DNA of 64,000 nucleotides from Gammaproteobacteria bacterium (GCA_029884165.1 JAOUIH010000006.1:1-64000); one strand, 5' to 3'. Shown: positions 1 through 47,815, counted from the stretch's first letter. The notes: generated from the letters alone by a model not told the origin. Numbers and translations are program-made.

Positions 1-1
1 G

Positions 2-1777
2 GAAGGCTACTTCGAGGCAAACCAGAGTTTCGAGGTCGGTGACGAGCCGAGCCGGACGATCACGATCGAGATGCGCAAGCTCCCGGGCTTCGTCACCGTA
101 GCGACCGACCCGGCTGTCGAGGCGACCGTGACCGTCGACGGAACCCTCATCGGCGACGCGCCTTTCGGTCCGCTGGAGCTCGAGCCGGGTACGCACACGA
201 TCGAAGTCAGCGCAGAGCGCTACCTGCCCTATGTCGACCAACTGCCCGTCCCGGGCCTCGGCGGGCGCCAGGTCGTCGACGTGCAGCTGGTGCCTCGCTG
301 GGCCGACGTTCAGATTGCGACGAATCCGCCCGGGGCCGAGGTCATTCGTGACGAAACCGTCCTGGGCCGGACGCCGGTCAGTCTCGAACTGCTCGAGGGC
401 AACCACGACCTGGTCGTCATCCTGGAAGGGTACAAGGCCTGGGACACGACAGTAGAAGCCCGGGCCAACGAAGACATCGTGCTGCCGGTCGTGGACCTGG
501 AGCCCGCAAACGCGCAGCTGACGGTGAATACGATTCCGCGCAGCGCCAACGTCACGGTGGACGGGCGCTACCGGGGACAGTCGCCGGTCAAGCTCGCTCT
601 GTCACCCGATACGGACTACCGGATCGGCCTGTCGAAGGCGGGATACGGATCTACCGAGAGGAGCGTCCGCCTCCGCTCCGGTGCGTCCGAATCCATCACG
701 GTCGACCTGGCTGCGCGCACCGGCAAGGTCACGATCGCCGCGCTGCCGGGTGATGCGCGAATCCTGATCGACGGACGCGATCGCGGCAGCGGTACGATGA
801 CCTTCGACCTGTCCTCGGCGCCGCACGAGCTCGAAGTGCGCATGGACGGCTACCAGTCCTTCAAGCGCGATTTCACGCCCCGGCCGGGTTACCCGCAAAC
901 CATCCAGGTCCGGCTGCTGAGCGAGGAAGAGATACGCCAGCGGAGCATAGCCGCGGCGACCACGAACTCGCAGGGCCAGGAACTGCGTCGGATCGAGCCG
1001 GGCACGTTCACGATGGGTGCTTCGCGCAGCGAGCAGGGCCGCCGCGCGAACGAGGTCATCGTGCCGGTGACGCTGACGAAGCCCTTTTTCATCGGCGCGA
1101 AGGAAGTCACCAACCGCGAGTACGCACGCTTCCGGCCGAACCACGATTCCGGTTCCGGCGTACACGCGGCGCTCGCCGGCGACAACAACCCGGTCGTGAA
1201 CATCAGCTGGGAAGATGCGGTCGATTACCTGAACTGGCTCAGCACCCAGGAGGGCCTGACGCCGGCTTACCAGAAGCGGTTCGAGAAGTGGGAGCCGGTG
1301 ATGCCGGTGCCGAACGGTTACCGGCTGCCGACGGAAGCCGAGTGGGTATGGGCCATCCGCTACCAGGGCCGCCCGGTCGCGACGCGCTTTCCCTGGGGCA
1401 ATGACCTGCCGCCGCGGCGTGACAGCGGCAACTACGCGGACCAGTCGGCCCGCCAGCTGGTTCCCTCGTTGCTGCCGGGCTACGACGACGGTTTCGCATC
1501 CACGGCGCCGGTCGGCAGCTTCCCGGCCAATGCGCTCGGCATCTACGATGGGGGCGGCAACGTCGCCGAATGGGTGCAGGATTATTATGCGGTGCCGCAG
1601 CCCGGGCTGACGGAGGCGCTGGTCGACCCGATGGGCCCGAGTCGCGGTTCCTACCACGTGATCCGTGGCTCGAGCTGGCGCCACGCCGGCGTCACCGAAC
1701 TCCGCGGAAGCTACCGGGACTTCGGCAACGACGGGCGCATCGACGTCGGTTTCCGTATTGCGCGAAACATCGACTAG
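2..1777 (+). CDS. PEGA-repeat protein with C-terminal SUMF1/FGE-like domain (5' partial)
   Basis: The reading frame is open from base 2, so the true start lies left of the window; 591 residues are visible. After the tail of one PEGA unit come four more (about residues 30-98, 103-165, 173-235, 242-305), each with the V.V.T.P..A.V.VDG pattern. PEGA units are small beta domains usually found in envelope or surface-layer proteins. Residues 326-591 form a formylglycine-generating-enzyme/sulfatase-modifying fold (RIEPGTFTMG near its start, RLPTEAEW, GGNVAEWVQD, RGSSW, GFRIA at the end). The C-terminal segment that carries the catalytic cysteines in true FGE has none, so this is probably a binding or scaffold module. 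It stands upstream of the MotA-like/FHA/VWA genes. Its TAG stop lies inside the repeat element that starts at 1774. Confidence 0.88.
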   Translation, partial: EGYFEANQSFEVGDEPSRTITIEMRKLPGFVTVATDPAVEATVTVDGTLIGDAPFGPLELEPGTHTIEVSAERYLPYVDQLPVPGLGGRQVVDVQLVPRWADVQIATNPPGAEVIRDETVLGRTPVSLELLEGNHDLVVILEGYKAWDTTVEARANEDIVLPVVDLEPANAQLTVNTIPRSANVTVDGRYRGQSPVKLALSPDTDYRIGLSKAGYGSTERSVRLRSGASESITVDLAARTGKVTIAALPGDARILIDGRDRGSGTMTFDLSSAPHELEVRMDGYQSFKRDFTPRPGYPQTIQVRLLSEEEIRQRSIAAATTNSQGQELRRIEPGTFTMGASRSEQGRRANEVIVPVTLTKPFFIGAKEVTNREYARFRPNHDSGSGVHAALAGDNNPVVNISWEDAVDYLNWLSTQEGLTPAYQKRFEKWEPVMPVPNGYRLPTEAEWVWAIRYQGRPVATRFPWGNDLPPRRDSGNYADQSARQLVPSLLPGYDDGFASTAPVGSFPANALGIYDGGGNVAEWVQDYYAVPQPGLTEALVDPMGPSRGSYHVIRGSSWRHAGVTELRGSYRDFGNDGRIDVGFRIARNID

Positions 1778-2169: not shown

Positions 2170-2469
2170 ATGCGTAAATCGCTTAAGCTGTCGGCCGCCT
2201 TTCTGCCGCTGTTGCTGGGCTGGTCGGCGCTGGCCCAGGAAGCTCCGCCCGCGGCCGAGCCGGACCCGGCGCCGGCCGCGGAGGAACCCGTCGATGCGGG
2301 CGAAGAACCGGCCGGGGATGCGGCCGGTGACGAACCCGGCGACGAGGAACTCTACGATTTCGATATCTCCGACCTGGACGAGCAGACTTACGACGAGGAA
2401 GACGATGGTTTCGTGCCGACTGAAGAAATCCCGGCGGACGAGCCGATCCCGTTTCCGAGCGACATCTGA
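2170..2469 (+). CDS. Small acidic exported protein
   Basis: 99 residues. Residues 1-22 form a typical signal peptide (MRKSLKL, a hydrophobic core, then SALAQ). The mature part is strongly acidic and rich in Pro, Ala, Glu and Asp, with no cysteine and no recognised fold, so it is probably disordered in the periplasm. A longer open frame extends left into the repeat element, but the ATG at 2170 is preceded by GAGG at a good distance and begins exactly at the signal peptide. The MotA-like gene starts 39 bases downstream, so the two are probably co-transcribed. Function unknown; an accessory part of the region 1 machine is an inference from position. Confidence 0.72.
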   Translation: MRKSLKLSAAFLPLLLGWSALAQEAPPAAEPDPAPAAEEPVDAGEEPAGDAAGDEPGDEELYDFDISDLDEQTYDEEDDGFVPTEEIPADEPIPFPSDI

Positions 2470-2508
2470 GCGCGGCCAGGCAAATCCCCAGGATCCGGAA
2501 CTTTTCTG

Positions 2509-3309
2509 ATGAACAAGAAAAACATACCTGTCGAGTTCGTATATCAGCTGTTTGCGCTGATCATATCGATCATCGTGGTGCACGGGTTCTACGTTTCCGT
2601 TGTGCGCCCGAACGCGAACGCAGACCTCGAGCGGCAGGCTATCGAAGCGGCGGCCAATCCAGACTACGTCAGGGATCGTTCCACCTGGATACTGTTGAAG
2701 GACCCCGAGCAGGAGTCCTGTTTCGTGCTCATGTTCTGGGCGCTCGCCATCATGGGCTACAAGTCCAGGATGATCATCGACGAGCGCAAATTGCTTGACG
2801 TTGACCTGATCCCGATAGCGGAGGGCATGCGGATCCTGCCTGAGGATACGCGCGAGTTCGCGCGCCAGGTCCAGGCCCTGCCGGACAAGCAGCAACGCAT
2901 GGTGCTGCCGCGAGCGCTGCTGAACGCGCTGCGCCGGTTCAGCACCACCCGCAATATCCAGGACGTGTCGAGCAGCACGCACACGATTTTCGAGTCCGAG
3001 GCCGACAAGCTGGAATCGGAGCTTTCGATGATCCGCTACATCGGCTGGGCCATCCCGTCCATCGGGTTCATAGGAACGGTCCGCGGTATCGGCGATGCGC
3101 TGGCTCAGGCGGACAAGGCCGTGCAGGGCGACATCGCGGGCGTTACACAGAGCCTGGGCGTCGCGTTCAATTCCACGTTCATTGCGCTGCTGATCAGTAT
3201 TTTCCTGATGTTCCTGGTTCACCAGCTGCAGCTGCAGCAGGAGCGATTGGTATTCGACAGCGAGAATTACACGAATGACAAGCTGATCCGGCACATGAAG
3301 TCGGATTGA
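2509..3309 (+). CDS. Divergent MotA/TolQ/ExbB-family channel protein
   Basis: 266 residues with predicted membrane segments near 12-31, 69-84, 177-193 and 213-240. The C-terminal part (about 155-245) carries the family signature: YIGWAIPSIGFIGTVRGIG, matching the ExbB segment around GLLGTVxGM, then GVAFNSTFIALLISIFLM as the last helix. The family forms pentameric inner-membrane channels that convert ion flow into movement of a TolR/ExbD/MotB partner. The N-terminal half is not typical ExbB, so this is a separate subfamily. The gene is followed by the FHA gene and by two genes whose proteins start with ExbD-like helices, which would be its natural partners. Confidence 0.85.
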   Translation: MNKKNIPVEFVYQLFALIISIIVVHGFYVSVVRPNANADLERQAIEAAANPDYVRDRSTWILLKDPEQESCFVLMFWALAIMGYKSRMIIDERKLLDVDLIPIAEGMRILPEDTREFARQVQALPDKQQRMVLPRALLNALRRFSTTRNIQDVSSSTHTIFESEADKLESELSMIRYIGWAIPSIGFIGTVRGIGDALAQADKAVQGDIAGVTQSLGVAFNSTFIALLISIFLMFLVHQLQLQQERLVFDSENYTNDKLIRHMKSD

Positions 3310-3328
3310 GGTCTCAGGGCGCAGTCAA

Positions 3329-4708
3329 TTGAACCGTCTGGCATTACACCTGAACGATGCGGGAATCACGCTGCTCGACGAGCGCAGCATCCTGTACCGC
3401 GAGCCTGGCTTTGCCTTGCTCGGGGATCATGATCTGGCGACGGGCAATGCCGCCTTCGCGAGCGCGCGCATCAATCCCCGGCGCATCCAGAACCGTTACT
3501 GGTCGGAACTGTCCGCGACGCCCCTGGTCGACCAGCGTTTCGGCCACCTGACCACGGCCGACCTGGCGATACGGCAGCTCGAGCAACTGTGGGAGGCCGC
3601 AGGGACGCCGGGTGCCCAGGTCGTTGTCGCCGTACCCCCGTACCTCGATCCCGCCAGGCTCGGCCTGTTTCTCGGTATCGCCGCGGAGATCGACATGCCT
3701 GTCGCGGCCCTGGTCGATGCGGCCGTGGCGGCGACCCGGCGCGAATACCGCAACGCGGTACCGGTGCACATCGACATGGGCCTGCATGCGACGACACTGA
3801 CGCGCCTGTCGCAGGCGGGCCAGGCGCAGTTCGAGCGGTCGGAGGTGCTGAACGAATTCGGAATCTACGCGTTGTACGACGCCTGGCTGACGGCGATCGC
3901 CGAGGCTTTCGTGCAGCAATCGCGCTTCGACCCGCTGCACACCGCCGCGACCGAGCAGATCCTGCTTGATCGGCTGGCGGGATGGCTCGCGCTGGCCAGC
4001 CGGGATCCCGTGGTGGCCATGGAACTCGAGTACGCGGGGATCCCGCATCGTGCGGAGATCGAGTCCCTGGCCCTGATCGCCGCCGTGGCGCCATTCTACC
4101 AGCAGATATCGAGCCGGCTCCGCGCGCTGTATCGCGCGGGAGAACTGCCGGCGATCCAGGTGAGCGATCGCATAGCCCGCCTGCCTGGCCTCGCCGACAT
4201 GCTGAAGGCTCGCATCGGGGGCGAGGTTTATGCGCTGGAGCCGGGCGCGACGGCGCGCGGCGCCCTCGCGCGCTGCCCCGACCAGACGGCCGCAGGAGGA
4301 TCCGTCAGCCTCCTGCGCCAGCTGCCGTGGGACCAATCGCCGTTCGTCATCGAGCGCCCGGAGGTGCATCATGCAGATGGCGATGTTCCGACGCACGTAC
4401 TGTTCGGCAGCCAGGCTTACGCGATCGGTGAGACACCGTTAGTGCTGGGCTCGCAGGCAGGCGACGCGGAGCGATCGATTCCGCTCGCGGCGGACATGCC
4501 CGGCATGTCGCGGCGACACTGTTCGCTCGCACGAATCGACGGGCGCTGTGTCGTGGAGGACCACAGCCGTTACGGCACATTCCTCAACGGGCACCGCATC
4601 AACGGCTCCACCGTGCTGCAGGTAGGCGACACGATACGGATCGGGTCCCCGGGGTTCGAATTCCAGTTGATCACGACCGACGAAAAACATGGCTCGACGA
4701 CGGCGTAA
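3329..4708 (+). CDS. Actin/Hsp70-like (ASKHA) protein with C-terminal FHA domain
   Basis: 459 residues from a TTG start. The N-terminal 300 residues resemble the Hsp70/FtsA ATPase fold: an early LHLNDAGITLLDE strand pair, then VVVAVPPYLDPARLG followed by AALVDAAVAA and VPVHIDMGLHATTLTRL, like the VPAYF, NEPTAAAL and DLGGGTFD blocks of DnaK. The glycine-rich phosphate loop is altered, so ATPase activity is uncertain. Residues about 350-455 are an FHA domain with the phosphothreonine-binding core SRRH and YGTFLNGHRI. This suggests cytoplasmic reading of Ser/Thr phosphorylation. The 3' end overlaps the next gene by 20 bases, pointing to translational coupling. Confidence 0.8.
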   Translation: MNRLALHLNDAGITLLDERSILYREPGFALLGDHDLATGNAAFASARINPRRIQNRYWSELSATPLVDQRFGHLTTADLAIRQLEQLWEAAGTPGAQVVVAVPPYLDPARLGLFLGIAAEIDMPVAALVDAAVAATRREYRNAVPVHIDMGLHATTLTRLSQAGQAQFERSEVLNEFGIYALYDAWLTAIAEAFVQQSRFDPLHTAATEQILLDRLAGWLALASRDPVVAMELEYAGIPHRAEIESLALIAAVAPFYQQISSRLRALYRAGELPAIQVSDRIARLPGLADMLKARIGGEVYALEPGATARGALARCPDQTAAGGSVSLLRQLPWDQSPFVIERPEVHHADGDVPTHVLFGSQAYAIGETPLVLGSQAGDAERSIPLAADMPGMSRRHCSLARIDGRCVVEDHSRYGTFLNGHRINGSTVLQVGDTIRIGSPGFEFQLITTDEKHGSTTA

Positions 4709-5783
4709 CACAGAAGTCTTCAGCATGTCGTTCCTCGACTGCATGAGTTGCGGGTTCGGGGCGGTCATCCTGTTCTTCATGATTATCAACTCGCAGGTGA
4801 CGCGTACGACCGATGCCCCGCCGCAGGAGTTACAGGGTGAAACCACCCGGCTGGAGTTCGAGATCCTGGACCAGCGGAAGAATCTCGTGCTCGCACGCAA
4901 CACAATGGAGGAACTCGACGACGAACAGGTGCGGGCCGAGGACGAGATCTCCCGGATCATTGCTCTGCTCGAGAAGCTCAAGGCCGAGCTGCAGAAGGAA
5001 GACAAGGAGACGGTTGCAAAAATCGAGCGAGTCGAAAAACTGAAGTCCGACATCGAGCGCCTGGAGGAGGAAAAGAAAAGGCTGCTCGCGCTCGAGGCGT
5101 CGCAGGAGTCGGGCAGCAAGGTCCGCACGTTCACTGGCGCCGGCGACCGCCAGTACCTGACCGGCCTCAAGGTAGGCGGGCAGCGGATCCTGGTGCTGGT
5201 CGACGCGTCGGCCAGCATGCTGGACCGCAAGATCGTCAACGTTATCCGCCGTCGCAACATGTCCGACGACGTCAAGCTGCGCTCGCGCAAGTGGCGCCAG
5301 GCCATTGCGAGTGTCGACTGGCTTGCCGCGCAGTTCCCCCCTGCCAGCAAGTTCCAGATTTATACGTTCAACAACGAGACCCGGCCGGTATTGAAGGGCA
5401 CGGATGGGGTCTGGCTCGACGTCGGCGACGGCGAGCAGCTGGACAGGGCGATCCGAGTGCTGCGCCGAACGGTGCCGGAGAACGGCACGAACATGAAGGA
5501 TGCGTTCAACGTGATCAACCAGATGAACCCGCGGCCGGACAACGTCATCGTGCTGGTCGACAGCCTGCCGACCATGAACGCGCCGGAGACCGACCGCGGG
5601 ATGGTGACCGGGCAGGAGCGACTCCGATTCCACTACGAGGCCGAGACCGAGATCCCGAGCGGCATCCCGGTCAACATCCTGCTTTACCCGATGGAGGGCG
5701 ACTACAACGCGGCAATCGCCTATTGGCTGCTCGCGTACCGTACCGGTGGCTCATTCATGAGCATCAGCAAGGACTGGCCGTAA
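4689..5783 (+). CDS. VWA protein with ExbD-like N-terminal membrane helix (paralog 1)
   Basis: 364 residues. A short basic start (MARRRRN) leads into one membrane helix, residues about 12-34, with SFLDCMSCGFGAVILFF. Asp17 sits where ExbD/TolR carry their ion-coupling aspartate, and Cys18 and Cys21 form a CxxC beside it. Residues about 45-140 are a charged coiled coil. From about 165 a von Willebrand A domain follows, with an intact MIDAS DASAS at 172-176 and later conserved positions (NGTNMKDA, VDSLP). Predicted topology is N-in with coiled coil and VWA in the periplasm. The next gene is a paralog 7 bases downstream. A partnership with the MotA-like protein at 2509 is inferred. Confidence 0.86.
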   Translation: MARRRRNTEVFSMSFLDCMSCGFGAVILFFMIINSQVTRTTDAPPQELQGETTRLEFEILDQRKNLVLARNTMEELDDEQVRAEDEISRIIALLEKLKAELQKEDKETVAKIERVEKLKSDIERLEEEKKRLLALEASQESGSKVRTFTGAGDRQYLTGLKVGGQRILVLVDASASMLDRKIVNVIRRRNMSDDVKLRSRKWRQAIASVDWLAAQFPPASKFQIYTFNNETRPVLKGTDGVWLDVGDGEQLDRAIRVLRRTVPENGTNMKDAFNVINQMNPRPDNVIVLVDSLPTMNAPETDRGMVTGQERLRFHYEAETEIPSGIPVNILLYPMEGDYNAAIAYWLLAYRTGGSFMSISKDWP

Positions 5784-5790
5784 AACCGAG

Positions 5791-6783
5791 ATGAGGAAGC
5801 GCAGAAACATCGAAGTCTTCAGCCTGTCGTTCCTCGACTGCATCTGCTGCGGTTTCGGTGCAATCGTGCTGCTGCTCGTGCTCAGCAAGATCTACGAGCC
5901 AGCGGTTATAGAAAAGACCGAAGAGGATCTCAAACAGTTGATAGCGCTATTGCAGGAAGAACTGTTCGAGATACAGGGCCAGACGGACGTCATCATGCGG
6001 GACCTGCGGACCGCGCGCACGGAAACGACCGAGAAAAAAATGACGCTCTCAAAACTGCAAAAGGAGCTCAATTCGGTCATGGGTCAATTCGAGCTGTTGC
6101 AGACCGACTCGCCGGCACTTGATGTGGACGAGGGTGAACTTCTCGCCGCCCGGCAGCAGCTCACCGAAGAGATGATGCGCCTGAACCCGACGTTCCGGCG
6201 CGCGCCGGACGACTCTATCGGCGGCATCCCGGTCGATTCGGAGTACATCATCTTTATCATCGACACCTCGGGCAGCATGCAGGCGAAGTGGGACTGGGCC
6301 GAGCAGAAGCTCAGTGAGGTGCTGGACGTTTACCCCACGGTCAAGGGGCTGCAGATCATGAACGACAACGGCCGGTTCATGTTCACGCAATATGGCCGGA
6401 CCTGGTTGCCGGATACGCCGCAGCTGCGCCAGGCAATCAAGCAGACCATGCGCCAGTGGGCGCCCTTCAGTGATTCCGACCCGTCCGACGGGATCGCGTA
6501 CGCGATCCAGTCATTCTGGGCGCCGGACAAGAAGATCAGCCTGTATGTGTTCGGCGACGAATTCCAGGGCACCTCGATGGAAGCCGTGCTTCGCAATATC
6601 GACGACATCAATCGCGAGGACGAGGACGGCAACCGCCTTGTCCGGATACACGCTGTCGGCTTCCCGTACAACTTCACCGGGCGAAACATCCCGCAAAGCT
6701 CCCAGCGTTTCGCCGGCCTGATGCGCCTGCTCTGCGAGCGCAACGGCGGCACCTTCGTCGCGCTCACGGAACGCGACCACTAG
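5791..6783 (+). CDS. VWA protein with ExbD-like N-terminal membrane helix (paralog 2)
   Basis: 330 residues with the same layout as the preceding gene: MRKRRN, then a helix with SFLDCICCGFGAIVLLLVL (Asp16, Cys17, Cys20), a coiled coil at about 40-120 and a VWA domain from about 150 with MIDAS DTSGS at 158-162. The two proteins share the RRNxEVFSxSFLDCxxCGFGA start but diverge strongly afterwards, so an old tandem duplication is likely, and they may work as a heteromer. The TAG stop falls within the terminus of the inverted repeat element at 6780-6938, so the original C-terminus may have been changed by insertion. Confidence 0.86.
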   Translation: MRKRRNIEVFSLSFLDCICCGFGAIVLLLVLSKIYEPAVIEKTEEDLKQLIALLQEELFEIQGQTDVIMRDLRTARTETTEKKMTLSKLQKELNSVMGQFELLQTDSPALDVDEGELLAARQQLTEEMMRLNPTFRRAPDDSIGGIPVDSEYIIFIIDTSGSMQAKWDWAEQKLSEVLDVYPTVKGLQIMNDNGRFMFTQYGRTWLPDTPQLRQAIKQTMRQWAPFSDSDPSDGIAYAIQSFWAPDKKISLYVFGDEFQGTSMEAVLRNIDDINREDEDGNRLVRIHAVGFPYNFTGRNIPQSSQRFAGLMRLLCERNGGTFVALTERDH

Positions 6784-6938
6784 CAGGATGTTGAAAAAGG
6801 TCGTCCAGACCTTTTGCAACGTCTTGAGTCCGGCGCATGTCCGGCCTCGCTCCCGACGGTTCAAGTATTTACGTGCTTGAAGCGCGGGCGAGGCATCCTT
6901 GTCTCGCGCTGGCAGGGTGTTGAAAAACACCCTGCCAG
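6780..6938 (-). repeat. Hairpin-rich MITE-like element, copy 2 (inverted)
   Basis: Reverse complement of the element at 1774-1933, same length within a base or two and clearly alignable along its whole length, including the terminal GCAGGGTGTT hairpin and the central TTCAAG...CTTGAA stem (here imperfect). The outer end next to the VWA gene keeps CTAG; the other end has CCAG. The two copies are in opposite orientation and enclose the five genes from 2170 to 6783. The bases from 6939 to 7092 show no gene; a GGAGGA ribosome site at 7080-7085 serves the next gene. Confidence 0.85.
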
Positions 6939-7092: not shown

Positions 7093-7815
7093 ATGAATAG
7101 CAGGATCTTACTGGCAGCACTGGCTGTATCCGCCCTGGCGAACCCGGCATTGGCCGGCGAAAGCAGTTCGGGCAAGGAGGTCGTAGGCGTCGGCTCGGGC
7201 GCCGTCGTGGGCGCGATCGCGGGCGGCCCGGTAGGTGCCATCATCGGCGCCGCCATCGGCGCCAAACTGGGCGACGCATTTTACCGGCAGGACGTCGAGG
7301 TAGAGCAGCTGACCGCCGACCTCGGTGCCGCCCGGCAGCGCGAGGGCCGTCTGCGCGGCGAAGTCGGCACGCTGAATGCGAGCGTCGACCGGCTGGGCGC
7401 GGAACTCGATCGCATGCGCGGCCTGGCCCGGCCGGAACTGCTGGCCCTGCTGCAGTCCGGCATCGAGATGGACCTGCTGTTCCGCACCGACGAGGACGCG
7501 CTGTCCGACGATACGGCGACGCGCCTGCGACAGTTCGCGGCGAGCCTCGCGGCGATGCCCGATGTGGCCATAAAGCTCGACGGTTATGCCGACGAGCGTG
7601 GCGATGCGGACTATAACCGCGAGCTATCGGAGCGGCGCGCGGCATCGGTCCGGGCCCTGCTCGTGTCCGGCGGCGTCCGCGCCGAGCGCATCCGGGTCGA
7701 TGCGCACGGAGAATCGCCAGCGGCCGACAGCAACGCCGACAGCTACGCGCTGGAGCGCAAGGTCAGCCTGACACTGTTCCTCGACGACTCGCCGGCGGTT
7801 GCGTCCAATCCCTGA
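7093..7815 (+). CDS. Glycine-zipper OmpA-family protein
   Basis: 240 residues. The ATG at 7093 follows GGAGGA and opens a signal peptide (cleavage probably after NPALA, residue 21); an in-frame upstream ATG at 7039 would add 18 residues without a signal shape. Residues 30-60 are a glycine zipper (GSGAVVGAIAGGPVGAIIGAAIG), residues 66-110 a short coiled coil, and 125-235 an OmpA-type peptidoglycan-binding domain with GYADERGDADYNRELSERRA (Asp167, Arg181). The combination resembles the PdsO-type OmpA proteins known from proteobacterial sortase systems, but no sortase is visible. It could be the cell-wall anchor of the upstream machine; that link is only positional. Confidence 0.82.
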   Translation: MNSRILLAALAVSALANPALAGESSSGKEVVGVGSGAVVGAIAGGPVGAIIGAAIGAKLGDAFYRQDVEVEQLTADLGAARQREGRLRGEVGTLNASVDRLGAELDRMRGLARPELLALLQSGIEMDLLFRTDEDALSDDTATRLRQFAASLAAMPDVAIKLDGYADERGDADYNRELSERRAASVRALLVSGGVRAERIRVDAHGESPAADSNADSYALERKVSLTLFLDDSPAVASNP

Positions 7816-45114: not shown

Positions 45115-45765
45115 ATGGATGCTGTACACGCCATTGTGCGTTTTTTCCAGGAAGGTGGGGTGTTCATGTACCCCATCATGATCGTGTTCGGCCTCGGCGT
45201 GGCGATCGCGGTCGAGCGCTGGACCTATCTCACCGTGTCCGGAGCGAGCAATCGGGCCCTGTGGAAGAAGATCGTGCCCTTCCTGAAGGCCGGTAACTTC
45301 CAGGAGGCCGCTACGGTCACCAGCAAGTCCAAGGCCGCGATCGCGTCGATCCTGACCTACGGCCTGTACCGCGTGAAGTCGGCGCGTCGCCGGGACGACA
45401 TCGAGAAGGCGATGGAGGAGAGCCTGATGGAGGTGCTGCCGCGCCTCGAGAAGCGGACGCACTACCTCGCGACGCTCGCGAATATTGCGACGCTGCTGGG
45501 ACTGCTCGGCACGATCATCGGTCTGATCACGGCTTTCACCGCGGTATCCAACGCGAATCCGGCCGACAAGGCGGACCTGCTATCGGCGAGTATCTCGGTC
45601 GCAATGAATACGACCGCGTTCGGCCTGATGGTCGCAATACCGTTGCTGCTGGTCCATGCGCTGCTGCAGACGAAAACGAACCAGATCGTCGATAGTCTCG
45701 AGATGGCCAGCGTGAAATTCCTTAACGCGGTAACGGAACGTCAGCTGAAGCCGGCCGGAGCCTGA
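45115..45765 (+). CDS. MotA/TolQ/ExbB proton channel protein
   Basis: 216 residues with three membrane helices (about 18-34, 118-141, 159-182) and the family signatures LANIATLLGLLGTIIGLITAF and AMNTTAFGLMVAIPLLL. AGAGGAG provides a strong ribosome site. Forms the pentameric channel that powers TolR/ExbD-type partners with the proton gradient. The two following genes encode such partners. Confidence 0.95.
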   Translation: MDAVHAIVRFFQEGGVFMYPIMIVFGLGVAIAVERWTYLTVSGASNRALWKKIVPFLKAGNFQEAATVTSKSKAAIASILTYGLYRVKSARRRDDIEKAMEESLMEVLPRLEKRTHYLATLANIATLLGLLGTIIGLITAFTAVSNANPADKADLLSASISVAMNTTAFGLMVAIPLLLVHALLQTKTNQIVDSLEMASVKFLNAVTERQLKPAGA

Positions 45766-45769
45766 TTCG

Positions 45770-46279
45770 ATGTTACGTAGCCGCCGACATGGCCGTCGCA
45801 ACGTTGAGACGGCAGAACTCAACATCACGGCGTTCATGAACCTGATGGTGGTCCTCGTCCCGTTCCTGCTGATTACAGCGGTGTTCTCGCGACTGGCGAT
45901 TGTAGAACTCAATCTGCCAGGCTCCTCTAACGAGCCCGTTGAAGAACAGGAATTGACCTTCCAGCTGGAAGTCATCGTCCGGGATGACCGGATCGAGGTG
46001 GGCGACCGGAATATCGGCGCGCTGGGCATCTATCCCAACGGCGCCGACGGCTACGACTTCGAGGCGCTGAGCAAGAAGCTCACCGAGCTCAAACGCAGCT
46101 ATCCCGACAAGACCGACGCATCGATCTTGCTGGAGTCGGACATTTCCTATGACACGCTGGTACAGGTCCTGGACCGCGTTCGCATCGAGGAGACCATTGA
46201 CGGTGACTCGATCGTGCGCTCGGACCTGTTCCCGGATATTTCGATCGGTGACGCGCCGGTCGAACAGGGCGGAGCCTGA
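45770..46279 (+). CDS. ExbD/TolR-family protein, variant lacking the membrane aspartate
   Basis: 169 residues. A basic N-terminus, one membrane helix (about 18-38) in AELNITAFMNLMVVLVPFLL, and a periplasmic ExbD/TolR domain. The position that is aspartate in ExbD and TolR (the LVDV motif) is Asn24 here, and a proline interrupts the helix. It starts 4 bases after the ExbB stop. Probably pairs with the next gene product, which keeps the aspartate. Confidence 0.9.
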   Translation: MLRSRRHGRRNVETAELNITAFMNLMVVLVPFLLITAVFSRLAIVELNLPGSSNEPVEEQELTFQLEVIVRDDRIEVGDRNIGALGIYPNGADGYDFEALSKKLTELKRSYPDKTDASILLESDISYDTLVQVLDRVRIEETIDGDSIVRSDLFPDISIGDAPVEQGGA

Positions 46280-46282
46280 AAC

Positions 46283-46810
46283 ATGGAAAGATCCAAGCGC
46301 GCAGCAAGAATGGAGCGGCGTCACGAGCGCGGCAAGCGCGGCGGCGCGTTGAACCTCGTTTCCCTGATGGACATCTTTACGATTCTCGTGTTCTTCCTGC
46401 TGGTCAATTCGGCGGAGGTCGAGACGCTGCCAAACGCCAAGGACATCCAGTTGCCGGAGTCGATTGCGGAGGAGAAGGCGAACGAAACGGTAGTAATCAT
46501 GATCAGCGACAAGGACATCATCGTGCAGGGCCTGCCGGTAGCCAAGGTCGCGGACGTCATGAAGCTGCCGGGCAACGACATCCCGGAGCTTCGCCAGGCC
46601 CTGATGTCGCAGAACGACCGTGTCCTCAGGCGCGAGGCGCTCGATGACATCGCCGGACGCGAGGTCACGATCATGGGTGACAAGGATATTTCGTACAAGC
46701 TCTTGAAGAAGGTGATGGCGACGTGCACCGCGTCCGATTACGGCCGGATCTCGCTCGCTGTCCTGCAGAAGAGCTCTGACAAACTCGACAGTCTGAGTGC
46801 GGCCAGGTAA
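46283..46810 (+). CDS. ExbD/TolR-family protein with conserved membrane aspartate
   Basis: 175 residues. Long basic cytoplasmic tail, then a membrane helix in ALNLVSLMDIFTILVFFLLV with Asp30 in the ion-coupling position. The periplasmic part has the TolR-like beta domain (VVIMISDKDIIVQGLPVAKV). It follows the Asn-variant paralog by 3 bases. Together with ExbB the two would form a stator with unequal ExbD chains. Confidence 0.92.
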   Translation: MERSKRAARMERRHERGKRGGALNLVSLMDIFTILVFFLLVNSAEVETLPNAKDIQLPESIAEEKANETVVIMISDKDIIVQGLPVAKVADVMKLPGNDIPELRQALMSQNDRVLRREALDDIAGREVTIMGDKDISYKLLKKVMATCTASDYGRISLAVLQKSSDKLDSLSAAR

Positions 46811-46846
46811 CGGGCCCCGAAGGGACTCAAGCTCAGGAGTTGGAGA

Positions 46847-47815
46847 TTGGACTTACCGTTCTACAGAGAGTACGAACTTCCCTGGACCAGTAGTTCGGGC
46901 CAGGAAGAGAAGTTCCGACGTATCCTCGGGATCGTTCTCGCGGCGCTGCTCGTGCTCGGTCTGATCTGGCCGTTCCTGCCGACGCCCGAGCCGGACCCCT
47001 ATGACGTCGAGGAATTGCCGCCGCGTTTCACGAAGCTGCTGCTGGAACAGCAGAAGCCGCCGCCGCCCCCGCCCCCGAAGCCCGAGCCTGAGCCGGAACC
47101 CGAGCAGTTGACGCAGCCGGAGCCGGAACAGGTGGCGGAGAAGCCGCCGGAGCCCGAGCCGCAACCCGAGCCCGAACCGGAGCCGCAGATCGATCGCCAG
47201 CAGCAGGCCCGTGAGAAAGCCAAGGCCGCACTGCTGCCGTTCACCGAAGAACTGGCCCAGCTGGCAGACAGCAATGTGCTCGACCGCGTGACGGACGACC
47301 GGCCACTTAGCACATCGGTGGGACAGGCCGAGCGAAATGAACGCTCGATGATCACGTCGAAGGTCGGCACGGCCAGCGGCGGCATCAACACCGCGAGCCT
47401 CTCCCGCAACACGGGCGGGACAGGGCTCGGCGAGCGCAGCACGACGCAGGTGGAGAGCCCGGTCGAAGCGGTCGGTGACGGCGCCGGAGCCGGTGGCGCC
47501 AGGCGCACGGGCTCGAGCGGCAAGGCATCACGCAGCCGCGAAGAGATAGAGCTCGTGTTCGACAAGAACAAGGGCGCGATCTTCGCGCTATACAATCGCG
47601 CCCTGCGCGAAGACCCGACGCTCGAAGGCAAGCTCGTACTGCGCCTGACCATCGCCCCCTCCGGCGAGGTGACTTTCTGCGAGATCGTGTCGAGCGAGCT
47701 CGGCAACGATGAGCTCGAGCGCCGCCTGGTACAGCGCGTCAAGCTGTTCCGTTTCGAGGCCAGGGACGTCGAGCCGATCACAACGACCAAGCCGATAGAC
47801 TTCTTCCCGGCCTGA
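46847..47815 (+). CDS. TonB-like energy transducer with AgmX/PglI-type C-terminus
   Basis: 322 residues from a TTG start with AGGAG seven bases upstream. One membrane helix (about 26-45, ILGIVLAALLVLGLIWPFL), a Pro/Glu repeat spacer (about 62-115), a glycine-rich linker, and a C-terminal domain from about residue 225 with SREEIELVFDKNKGAIFALY and LVLRLTIAPSGEVTFCEIVS, ending PIDFFPA. This last domain is the AgmX/PglI C-terminal type known from myxobacterial gliding and related TonB proteins. It would reach across the periplasm to an outer-membrane partner. Last gene of the operon. Confidence 0.9.
   Translation: MDLPFYREYELPWTSSSGQEEKFRRILGIVLAALLVLGLIWPFLPTPEPDPYDVEELPPRFTKLLLEQQKPPPPPPPKPEPEPEPEQLTQPEPEQVAEKPPEPEPQPEPEPEPQIDRQQQAREKAKAALLPFTEELAQLADSNVLDRVTDDRPLSTSVGQAERNERSMITSKVGTASGGINTASLSRNTGGTGLGERSTTQVESPVEAVGDGAGAGGARRTGSSGKASRSREEIELVFDKNKGAIFALYNRALREDPTLEGKLVLRLTIAPSGEVTFCEIVSSELGNDELERRLVQRVKLFRFEARDVEPITTTKPIDFFPA

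Follow-up and report, generated by a model that had tools for sequence, protein, structure and literature searches.

Flagella, gliding, nutrient uptake, phage defence and the integrity of the outer membrane all depend on ion-driven motors of the 5:2 type. One family of such motors was described in a single paragraph and Fig. 4c,d of a 2025 paper in Mol Biol Evol (PMC12204202): paired genes for vWA proteins with a transpore helix lie next to tolQ without tolR or exbD, mainly in Proteobacteria and Verrucomicrobia, with Idiomarina as the reference, and AlphaFold3 models place the vWA helices in the pore of a pentamer with their Asp residues inside a Thr ring. In the Bacteroidota, PorK/GldK assemble into a ring or track that a motor drives (PMC12635249). 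The window analysed here, 64,000 nucleotides of a contig of a Gammaproteobacteria bacterium (GCA_029884165.1, JAOUIH010000006.1:1-64000), carries at 2170-6783 a gene cluster encoding a small acidic exported protein, a MotA/TolQ/ExbB-like channel subunit, an Hsp70-like protein with an FHA domain, and two vWA proteins (VWA1 and VWA2), preceded by a PEGA/SUMF1 gene. This cluster, together with genes beyond the window edge, probably encodes an ion-driven trans-envelope motor of the 5:2 type that has a VWA1:VWA2 axle and works on the PEGA/SUMF1 protein, a TPR protein and lipoproteins.

The system looks like a member of the family described in PMC12204202, matched by the described features rather than by alignment to the Idiomarina proteins: a TolQ-like gene adjoins a heterologous vWA pair, there is no syntenic tolR or exbD, the N-terminal transmembrane (TM) helix of the vWA proteins has a conserved Asp, the pore has its Thr ring, and the bacteria are mainly Proteobacteria. 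Because that paper was published in 2025, the idea of the motor core (vWA proteins paired as the axle of a TolQ-like pentamer) is already public. Its text makes no mention of the lipoproteins, PEGA/SUMF1, kinase-TPR, PP2C and Hsp70/FHA parts found here, and no paper on the kinase/FHA/PEGA/TolQ gene set or on the rest of the machine was found in the open-access literature. The initial annotation of this DNA, which had called the system a candidate undescribed machine, is thus only partly right on this point; what is new here is the machine beyond the motor core, with a regulatory layer and a GldK-like SUMF1 protein as partner.

The five consecutive plus-strand genes of that annotation are real, and the identities it gave to the MotA-like, FHA and Hsp70-like products are borne out by profile and structure matches. 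The gaps from the acidic protein gene through VWA2 are 39, 19, -20 and 7 nt. The features of the cluster are as follows.

1..1777, + strand: 3' part of the gene for an FHA-TM-PEGA(x4)-SUMF1 inner-membrane protein (Pfam PEGA 7.4e-45, FGE-sulfatase 4.3e-41)
2170..2469, + strand: small acidic exported protein, an open reading frame with a signal peptide and an acidic tail in its sequence; fast-evolving
2509..3309, + strand: MotA/TolQ/ExbB-like channel subunit (PF01618, 2.5e-15)
3076..3078, + strand: Thr190 of the MotA-like protein, TolQ Thr145 by alignment; invariant in 16 diverse sequences
3175..3177, + strand: Thr223 of the MotA-like protein, TolQ Thr178 by alignment; invariant in 16 diverse sequences
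3329..4708, + strand: cytoplasmic Hsp70 nucleotide-binding-domain-like (ASKHA) domain with a C-terminal FHA domain, TTG start (FHA Pfam E=5.9e-13; AlphaFold2 model; DnaK/Ssz1 matches)
4689..5783, + strand: VWA1, with an N-in membrane helix, a long coiled coil and a periplasmic vWA domain (AlphaFold2, Foldseek, alignments)
4737..4739, + strand: Asp17 of VWA1, candidate ion-binding residue of the transpore helix; invariant in 54 sequences
5202..5216, + strand: metal-ion-dependent adhesion site (MIDAS) DxSxS of VWA1 (D172, S174, S176); invariant in alignments
5791..6783, + strand: VWA2, with a paralogous transpore helix and a vWA domain (alignment); where it does not adjoin VWA1 it is still present elsewhere (four genomes checked)
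5836..5838, + strand: Asp16 of VWA2, candidate ion-binding residue; invariant in 16 sequences
6262..6276, + strand: MIDAS DxSxS of VWA2 (D158, S160, S162); invariant in 16 sequences

The MotA-like protein belongs to the MotA_ExbB superfamily (PF01618, 56.8 bits against a curated cutoff of 22.9), and its profile aligns without gaps to residues 104-212 of solved TolQ, so that T190 and T223 fall on T145 and T178. VWA1 and VWA2 match the vWA families of Pfam only below threshold (5.7e-5 and 0.021, respectively); the vWA fold proposed for them was recovered for VWA1 in an AlphaFold model with Foldseek vWA matches, in which the vWA domain follows a membrane helix (residues 13-41) and a long coiled coil (46-140). 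Sequence searches found no solved structure of close VWA relatives, the coiled-coil matches being generic. The helices of both proteins contain F-L-D-x-x-x-C, of which the Asp is invariant and lies at the position of the ExbD/TolR Asp. Further along VWA1, D291 is invariant and T267 nearly so in the 54-sequence alignment. The vWA domain is predicted to be periplasmic because of the basic residues N-terminal to the membrane helix. By alignment VWA1 and VWA2 are distinct paralogs, and so constitute a heterologous pair. In the window's genome and two relatives, every ExbD/TolR gene (PF02472) found is located away from the locus, and the ExbD genes of the window's genome adjoin their own channel genes. 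Within the window, 45115-47815 holds an ExbB/TolQ-like gene and, after it, two ExbD/TolR genes that differ from each other and a gene with a TonB_C domain; paired ExbD genes also occur in two relatives (G005 and G008).

Gene order is conserved throughout one order of Gammaproteobacteria: PEGA/SUMF1, acidic protein, MotA-like protein, Hsp70-like/FHA protein, VWA1, VWA2. A match to the MotA-like protein is present in 57 of 60 relatives, mostly as a full-length ortholog, with 73-87% identity within the family and 48-65% within the order. Twenty loci of different genera keep the gene order, save L050, where VWA2 is not beside VWA1 and the PEGA/SUMF1 gene is several kb upstream, and L044, where the contig stops inside the FHA gene. 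The order also recurs in all 80 named loci of Woeseiaceae, Pseudomonadales, Cellvibrionales and three records labelled Acidobacteriota, scored as far as the contigs reach, with the exceptions that VWA2 has moved in some and that L130 is without the FHA gene; all five genes are present in 57 of these. Homologs of the acidic protein are encoded at the same position in 44 loci, with a second cluster in 17. VWA2 is missing from the site in four long loci (L105, L108, L111 and L115). Loss of VWA2 in a clade was rejected, since the gene is intact elsewhere in all four genomes checked that lack it at the cluster (one represented among the 20 loci, the other three among the 80). Its retention after leaving the cluster argues for an obligate VWA1:VWA2 heteropair.

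In a sample of 274 genomes spread through the class Gammaproteobacteria, full orthologs of the MotA-like protein and of VWA1 were counted in the identical 20 genomes, belonging to 13 families, and the two genes share a contig in 19 of these. The chance of such co-occurrence is ~1e-30 if genomes are treated as independent; because they are not, the significance is weaker than that, and still strong. The co-occurrence and the gene order exclude a paralog that stands beside the channel gene by chance. Synteny, co-occurrence, the invariant Asp, the pore Thr pair and the lack of a nearby ExbD/TolR gene lend good support to the suggestion of the initial annotation that the vWA pair takes the ExbD/MotB role in a MotA/TolQ-like pentamer.

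That annotation was too narrow in treating the set as five genes: all five are real, and the machine is larger, with further genes beyond the window edge. The window starts at base 1 of its contig, so that the PEGA/SUMF1 gene noted upstream is present and lacks its 5' part. The missing N-terminus is encoded on the minus strand of another contig of the same genome (C77), the end of which shares ~90 aa with the start of the window, at 2 differences. Full-length relatives (~808 aa) have an N-terminal FHA-like region, one TM helix, then PEGA repeats and SUMF1. In relatives the PEGA/SUMF1 gene is preceded, in order, by genes for LIPO2, LIPO1 and a kinase-TM-TPR protein, giving an operon LIPO2-LIPO1-kinase/TPR-PEGA/SUMF1-MotA-ASKHA/FHA-VWA1-VWA2. 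LIPO2, a lipoprotein, ends in a conserved C-terminal stretch (DDDIVARQLREAA..DPELREKLWEEYR) and has a long linker of low complexity. In LIPO1 the lipobox Cys is invariant; this protein has no Pfam family, and sequence searches found no solved structure, only generic coiled-coil matches. The TPR part of the kinase-TM-TPR protein lies across the membrane from the kinase, which has HRD and DFG motifs in the window's genome, and C77 also encodes a second kinase, which bears zinc ribbons, and a PP2C phosphatase. The AlphaFold2 model of the Hsp70-like/FHA protein (mean confidence score pLDDT 93.3) has DnaK and Ssz1 as its top Foldseek matches, and its VIA Z of ~29 across ~320 residues identifies the Hsp70 nucleotide-binding-domain fold.

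LIPO1 is present in 18 of the 20 genomes with the MotA-like protein and VWA1, and in one other (G242; 2.2 Mb, single contig), which has no match to either. There the LIPO1 and TPR frames are broken beside repeated transposase-like open reading frames (L234); these pieces are a remnant of the system, and the idea that LIPO1 is independent of the motor was set aside. Two further short lipoprotein-like genes (LP_down and LP_down2) lie beside the cluster in L193, L195, L196, L205 and L239, which represent several families, either upstream on the opposite strand or downstream.

VWA1 and VWA2 also occur outside the class, in twelve genomes of a single family. The two of these that were examined have the order LIPO2-LIPO1-TPR-PEGA/SUMF1-MotA-VWA1-VWA2: such distant members retain the lipoproteins, TPR, PEGA/SUMF1, motor and vWA pair, and are without the kinase domain and the ASKHA/FHA protein. 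Because only the former are kept, they would be the machine, and the kinase and ASKHA/FHA protein its control. The phospho-dependent control that the initial annotation ascribed to the FHA protein gains plausibility from the kinase and PP2C genes of the operon region, as a layer that is optional in distant members.

Records labelled Thermoanaerobaculia, Acidobacteria and Sulfomarinibacter (L127, L129 and L134) have the five-gene set with 60-63% MotA identity, which reflects either inter-phylum transfer or mis-binned contigs. A second cluster type, of which L240, L241, L242, L243 and L174, from other members of the class, have varying subsets, consists of FHA, MotA-like, PP2C, trypsin-like protease, transpore-helix vWA and kinase genes. 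L240 and L242, which were distant matches of the MotA-like protein, combine the first four with a vWA protein that has the same helix Asp, L242 having the kinase as well; in L241 the neighbourhood is similar and the MotA-like match is on a different contig. Because L240 and L242 are of this type, there may be more than one form in which motors of this kind became linked with phosphatase, kinase and FHA proteins.

The PEGA/SUMF1 protein matches, in its SUMF1 part, GldK and PorK in addition to FGE: the score against GldK (NCBIfam) is 93.8 bits (1.4e-26), which does not reach the equivalog cutoff of 350 bits, and that against the solved PorK ring protein is 5e-11. An active sulfatase activator (FGE) was rejected, the match being one of fold, because the catalytic Cys pair expected near the C-terminus is missing: the SUMF1 part of the window copy contains no Cys, and neither do the last 60 residues of the protein in any of 17 aligned relatives. 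An outer-membrane lipoprotein like GldK was also rejected, because of the N-terminal cytoplasmic region and TM helix. Since its SUMF1 part resembles GldK/PorK, which form a motor-driven ring or track, the PEGA/SUMF1 protein is by this analogy a candidate for the element pushed by the motor, though its anchor is in the inner membrane.

The data establish the genes and their order, their co-occurrence, the key residues and the folds of two proteins; stoichiometry, rotation, ion, direction of force, target and phospho-control are what we infer in the following scheme. Five MotA/TolQ-like subunits would form a ring, and one VWA1 and one VWA2 would supply two central membrane helices, each with its invariant Asp facing the conserved Thr ring. 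Ion flow would turn ring and axle relative to each other, and the periplasmic coiled coils and metal-binding vWA heads would pass the movement to the PEGA/SUMF1 protein in the inner membrane, the TPR protein and the two lipoproteins, the output being mechanical work done at the cell wall or outer membrane. In this genome the kinase-TM-TPR protein, second kinase, PP2C phosphatase and FHA domains probably serve in switching or assembly from the cytoplasmic side. It is possible, rather than probable, that the system constitutes a distinct class of trans-envelope machine of the rank of Tol-Pal or the type IX secretion system (T9SS), defined by an obligate VWA1:VWA2 axle, a 5:1:1 ion motor, a SUMF1-fold/lipoprotein assembly and its own kinase/phosphatase/FHA switch.

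Several observations weigh against the proposed motor and its control. The MotA-like gene of one of the 20 genomes (G270) is on another contig than VWA1. The FHA-like region of the PEGA protein has no S-R-x-H motif and, in the one full-length relative tested, no Pfam FHA match. The kinase is without HRD and DFG in several relatives, and its domain is absent from distant members, so that regulation of this kind is not general.

Other functions may be considered for the same parts. A secretion or surface-movement machine like T9SS/gliding, in which the motor acts on the lipoproteins and the SUMF1-fold protein in the way that GldLM drives GldK/GldN, would be a sharper version of the proposed motor, naming its function; the similarity of the SUMF1 part to GldK (below the cutoff) and PorK, the motor-driven ring or track that PorK/GldK form (PMC12635249), and the lipoproteins encoded in the same operon all point this way, but the PEGA/SUMF1 protein is anchored in the inner membrane, unlike GldK, and neither a translocon of the outer membrane nor an adhesin was recognised among the operon's products, which leaves this function rather unlikely. 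Two kinases, a PP2C phosphatase and FHA domains encoded in the region, and a kinase protein with a TM helix and a far-side TPR part, would also suit a signalling device in which ion flow or envelope state is sensed by vWA, TPR and PEGA parts and relayed to the kinase and FHA proteins within the cell, without generation of force. This is less probable again, because the kinase domain and ASKHA/FHA protein are the very parts that distant members dispense with, whereas the motor, vWA pair, PEGA/SUMF1, TPR and lipoproteins are kept.

Two further alternatives concern the motor itself. The vWA proteins might bind at the edge of the pentamer like TolA/TonB, as described for a first, different vWA family (PMC12204202), leaving the pore to a separate ExbD-like pair encoded elsewhere. 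ExbD genes do exist elsewhere in the window's genome, but they lie beside their own channel genes, none is linked to the cluster, and the invariant Asp of the vWA proteins is at an ExbD/TolR-like helix position, all of which makes edge binding highly improbable. The MotA-like protein also has weak matches to ZorA (4.3e-5), which suggested an anti-phage system of the Zorya type, a 5:2 motor with extra effectors. This was rejected as scarcely credible, because no ZorB or effector genes were recognised among the annotated neighbours, PADLOC gave no convincing match, and nearly every genome of the family has the genes in conserved order, unlike patchy defence islands.

Two neighbouring elements of the window complete the description of the locus. 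A glycine-zipper OmpA-family protein is encoded at 7093-7815 (near PdsO, 128 bits against a cutoff of 152.2); because this PdsO-like gene adjoins the cluster in most Woeseiaceae examined and in some other families, its product is probably a neighbour rather than a part of the machine. A dispersed intergenic element of ~146 bp flanks the genes from the acidic protein to VWA2 in inverted orientation (1792-1937 and 6776-6921). It has ~30 copies in the genome at >=87% identity, several of them at contig ends, and looks like a non-coding mobile element or a repetitive extragenic palindromic (REP)-like repeat.

If the proposed motor is real, a widespread relative of the known motors, its axle of adhesion type and its phospho-switch its own, would perform a new kind of work at the bacterial surface, and a motor class so far reported only in passing would become testable in cultured bacteria such as the carrier Pseudomaricurvus alcaniphilus. 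With TolQR/ExbBD it shares the channel fold, the essential Thr pair and the Asp in the central helix, whereas its axle heads are vWA domains instead of the ExbD/TolR fold, and TolA/TonB have no counterpart here. With GldKLMN/PorKLMN it would share a 5:2 motor and does share a SUMF1-fold periplasmic protein and lipoproteins; in contrast, the GldM axle has no vWA domain, no kinases belong to that system, and GldK is an outer-membrane lipoprotein whereas here SUMF1 sits on the PEGA protein of the inner membrane. In having a kinase, a PP2C phosphatase and FHA proteins tied to an envelope machine, it recalls PpkA/PppA/Fha of type VI secretion, the machine itself being unrelated. The AglRQS-Glt gliding complex of Myxococcus likewise unites a TolQ-like motor, FHA and TPR proteins and a vWA lipoprotein (CglB) in one machine, but there the vWA domain is in a separate lipoprotein and the axle is formed by the TolR-like AglQ/AglS.

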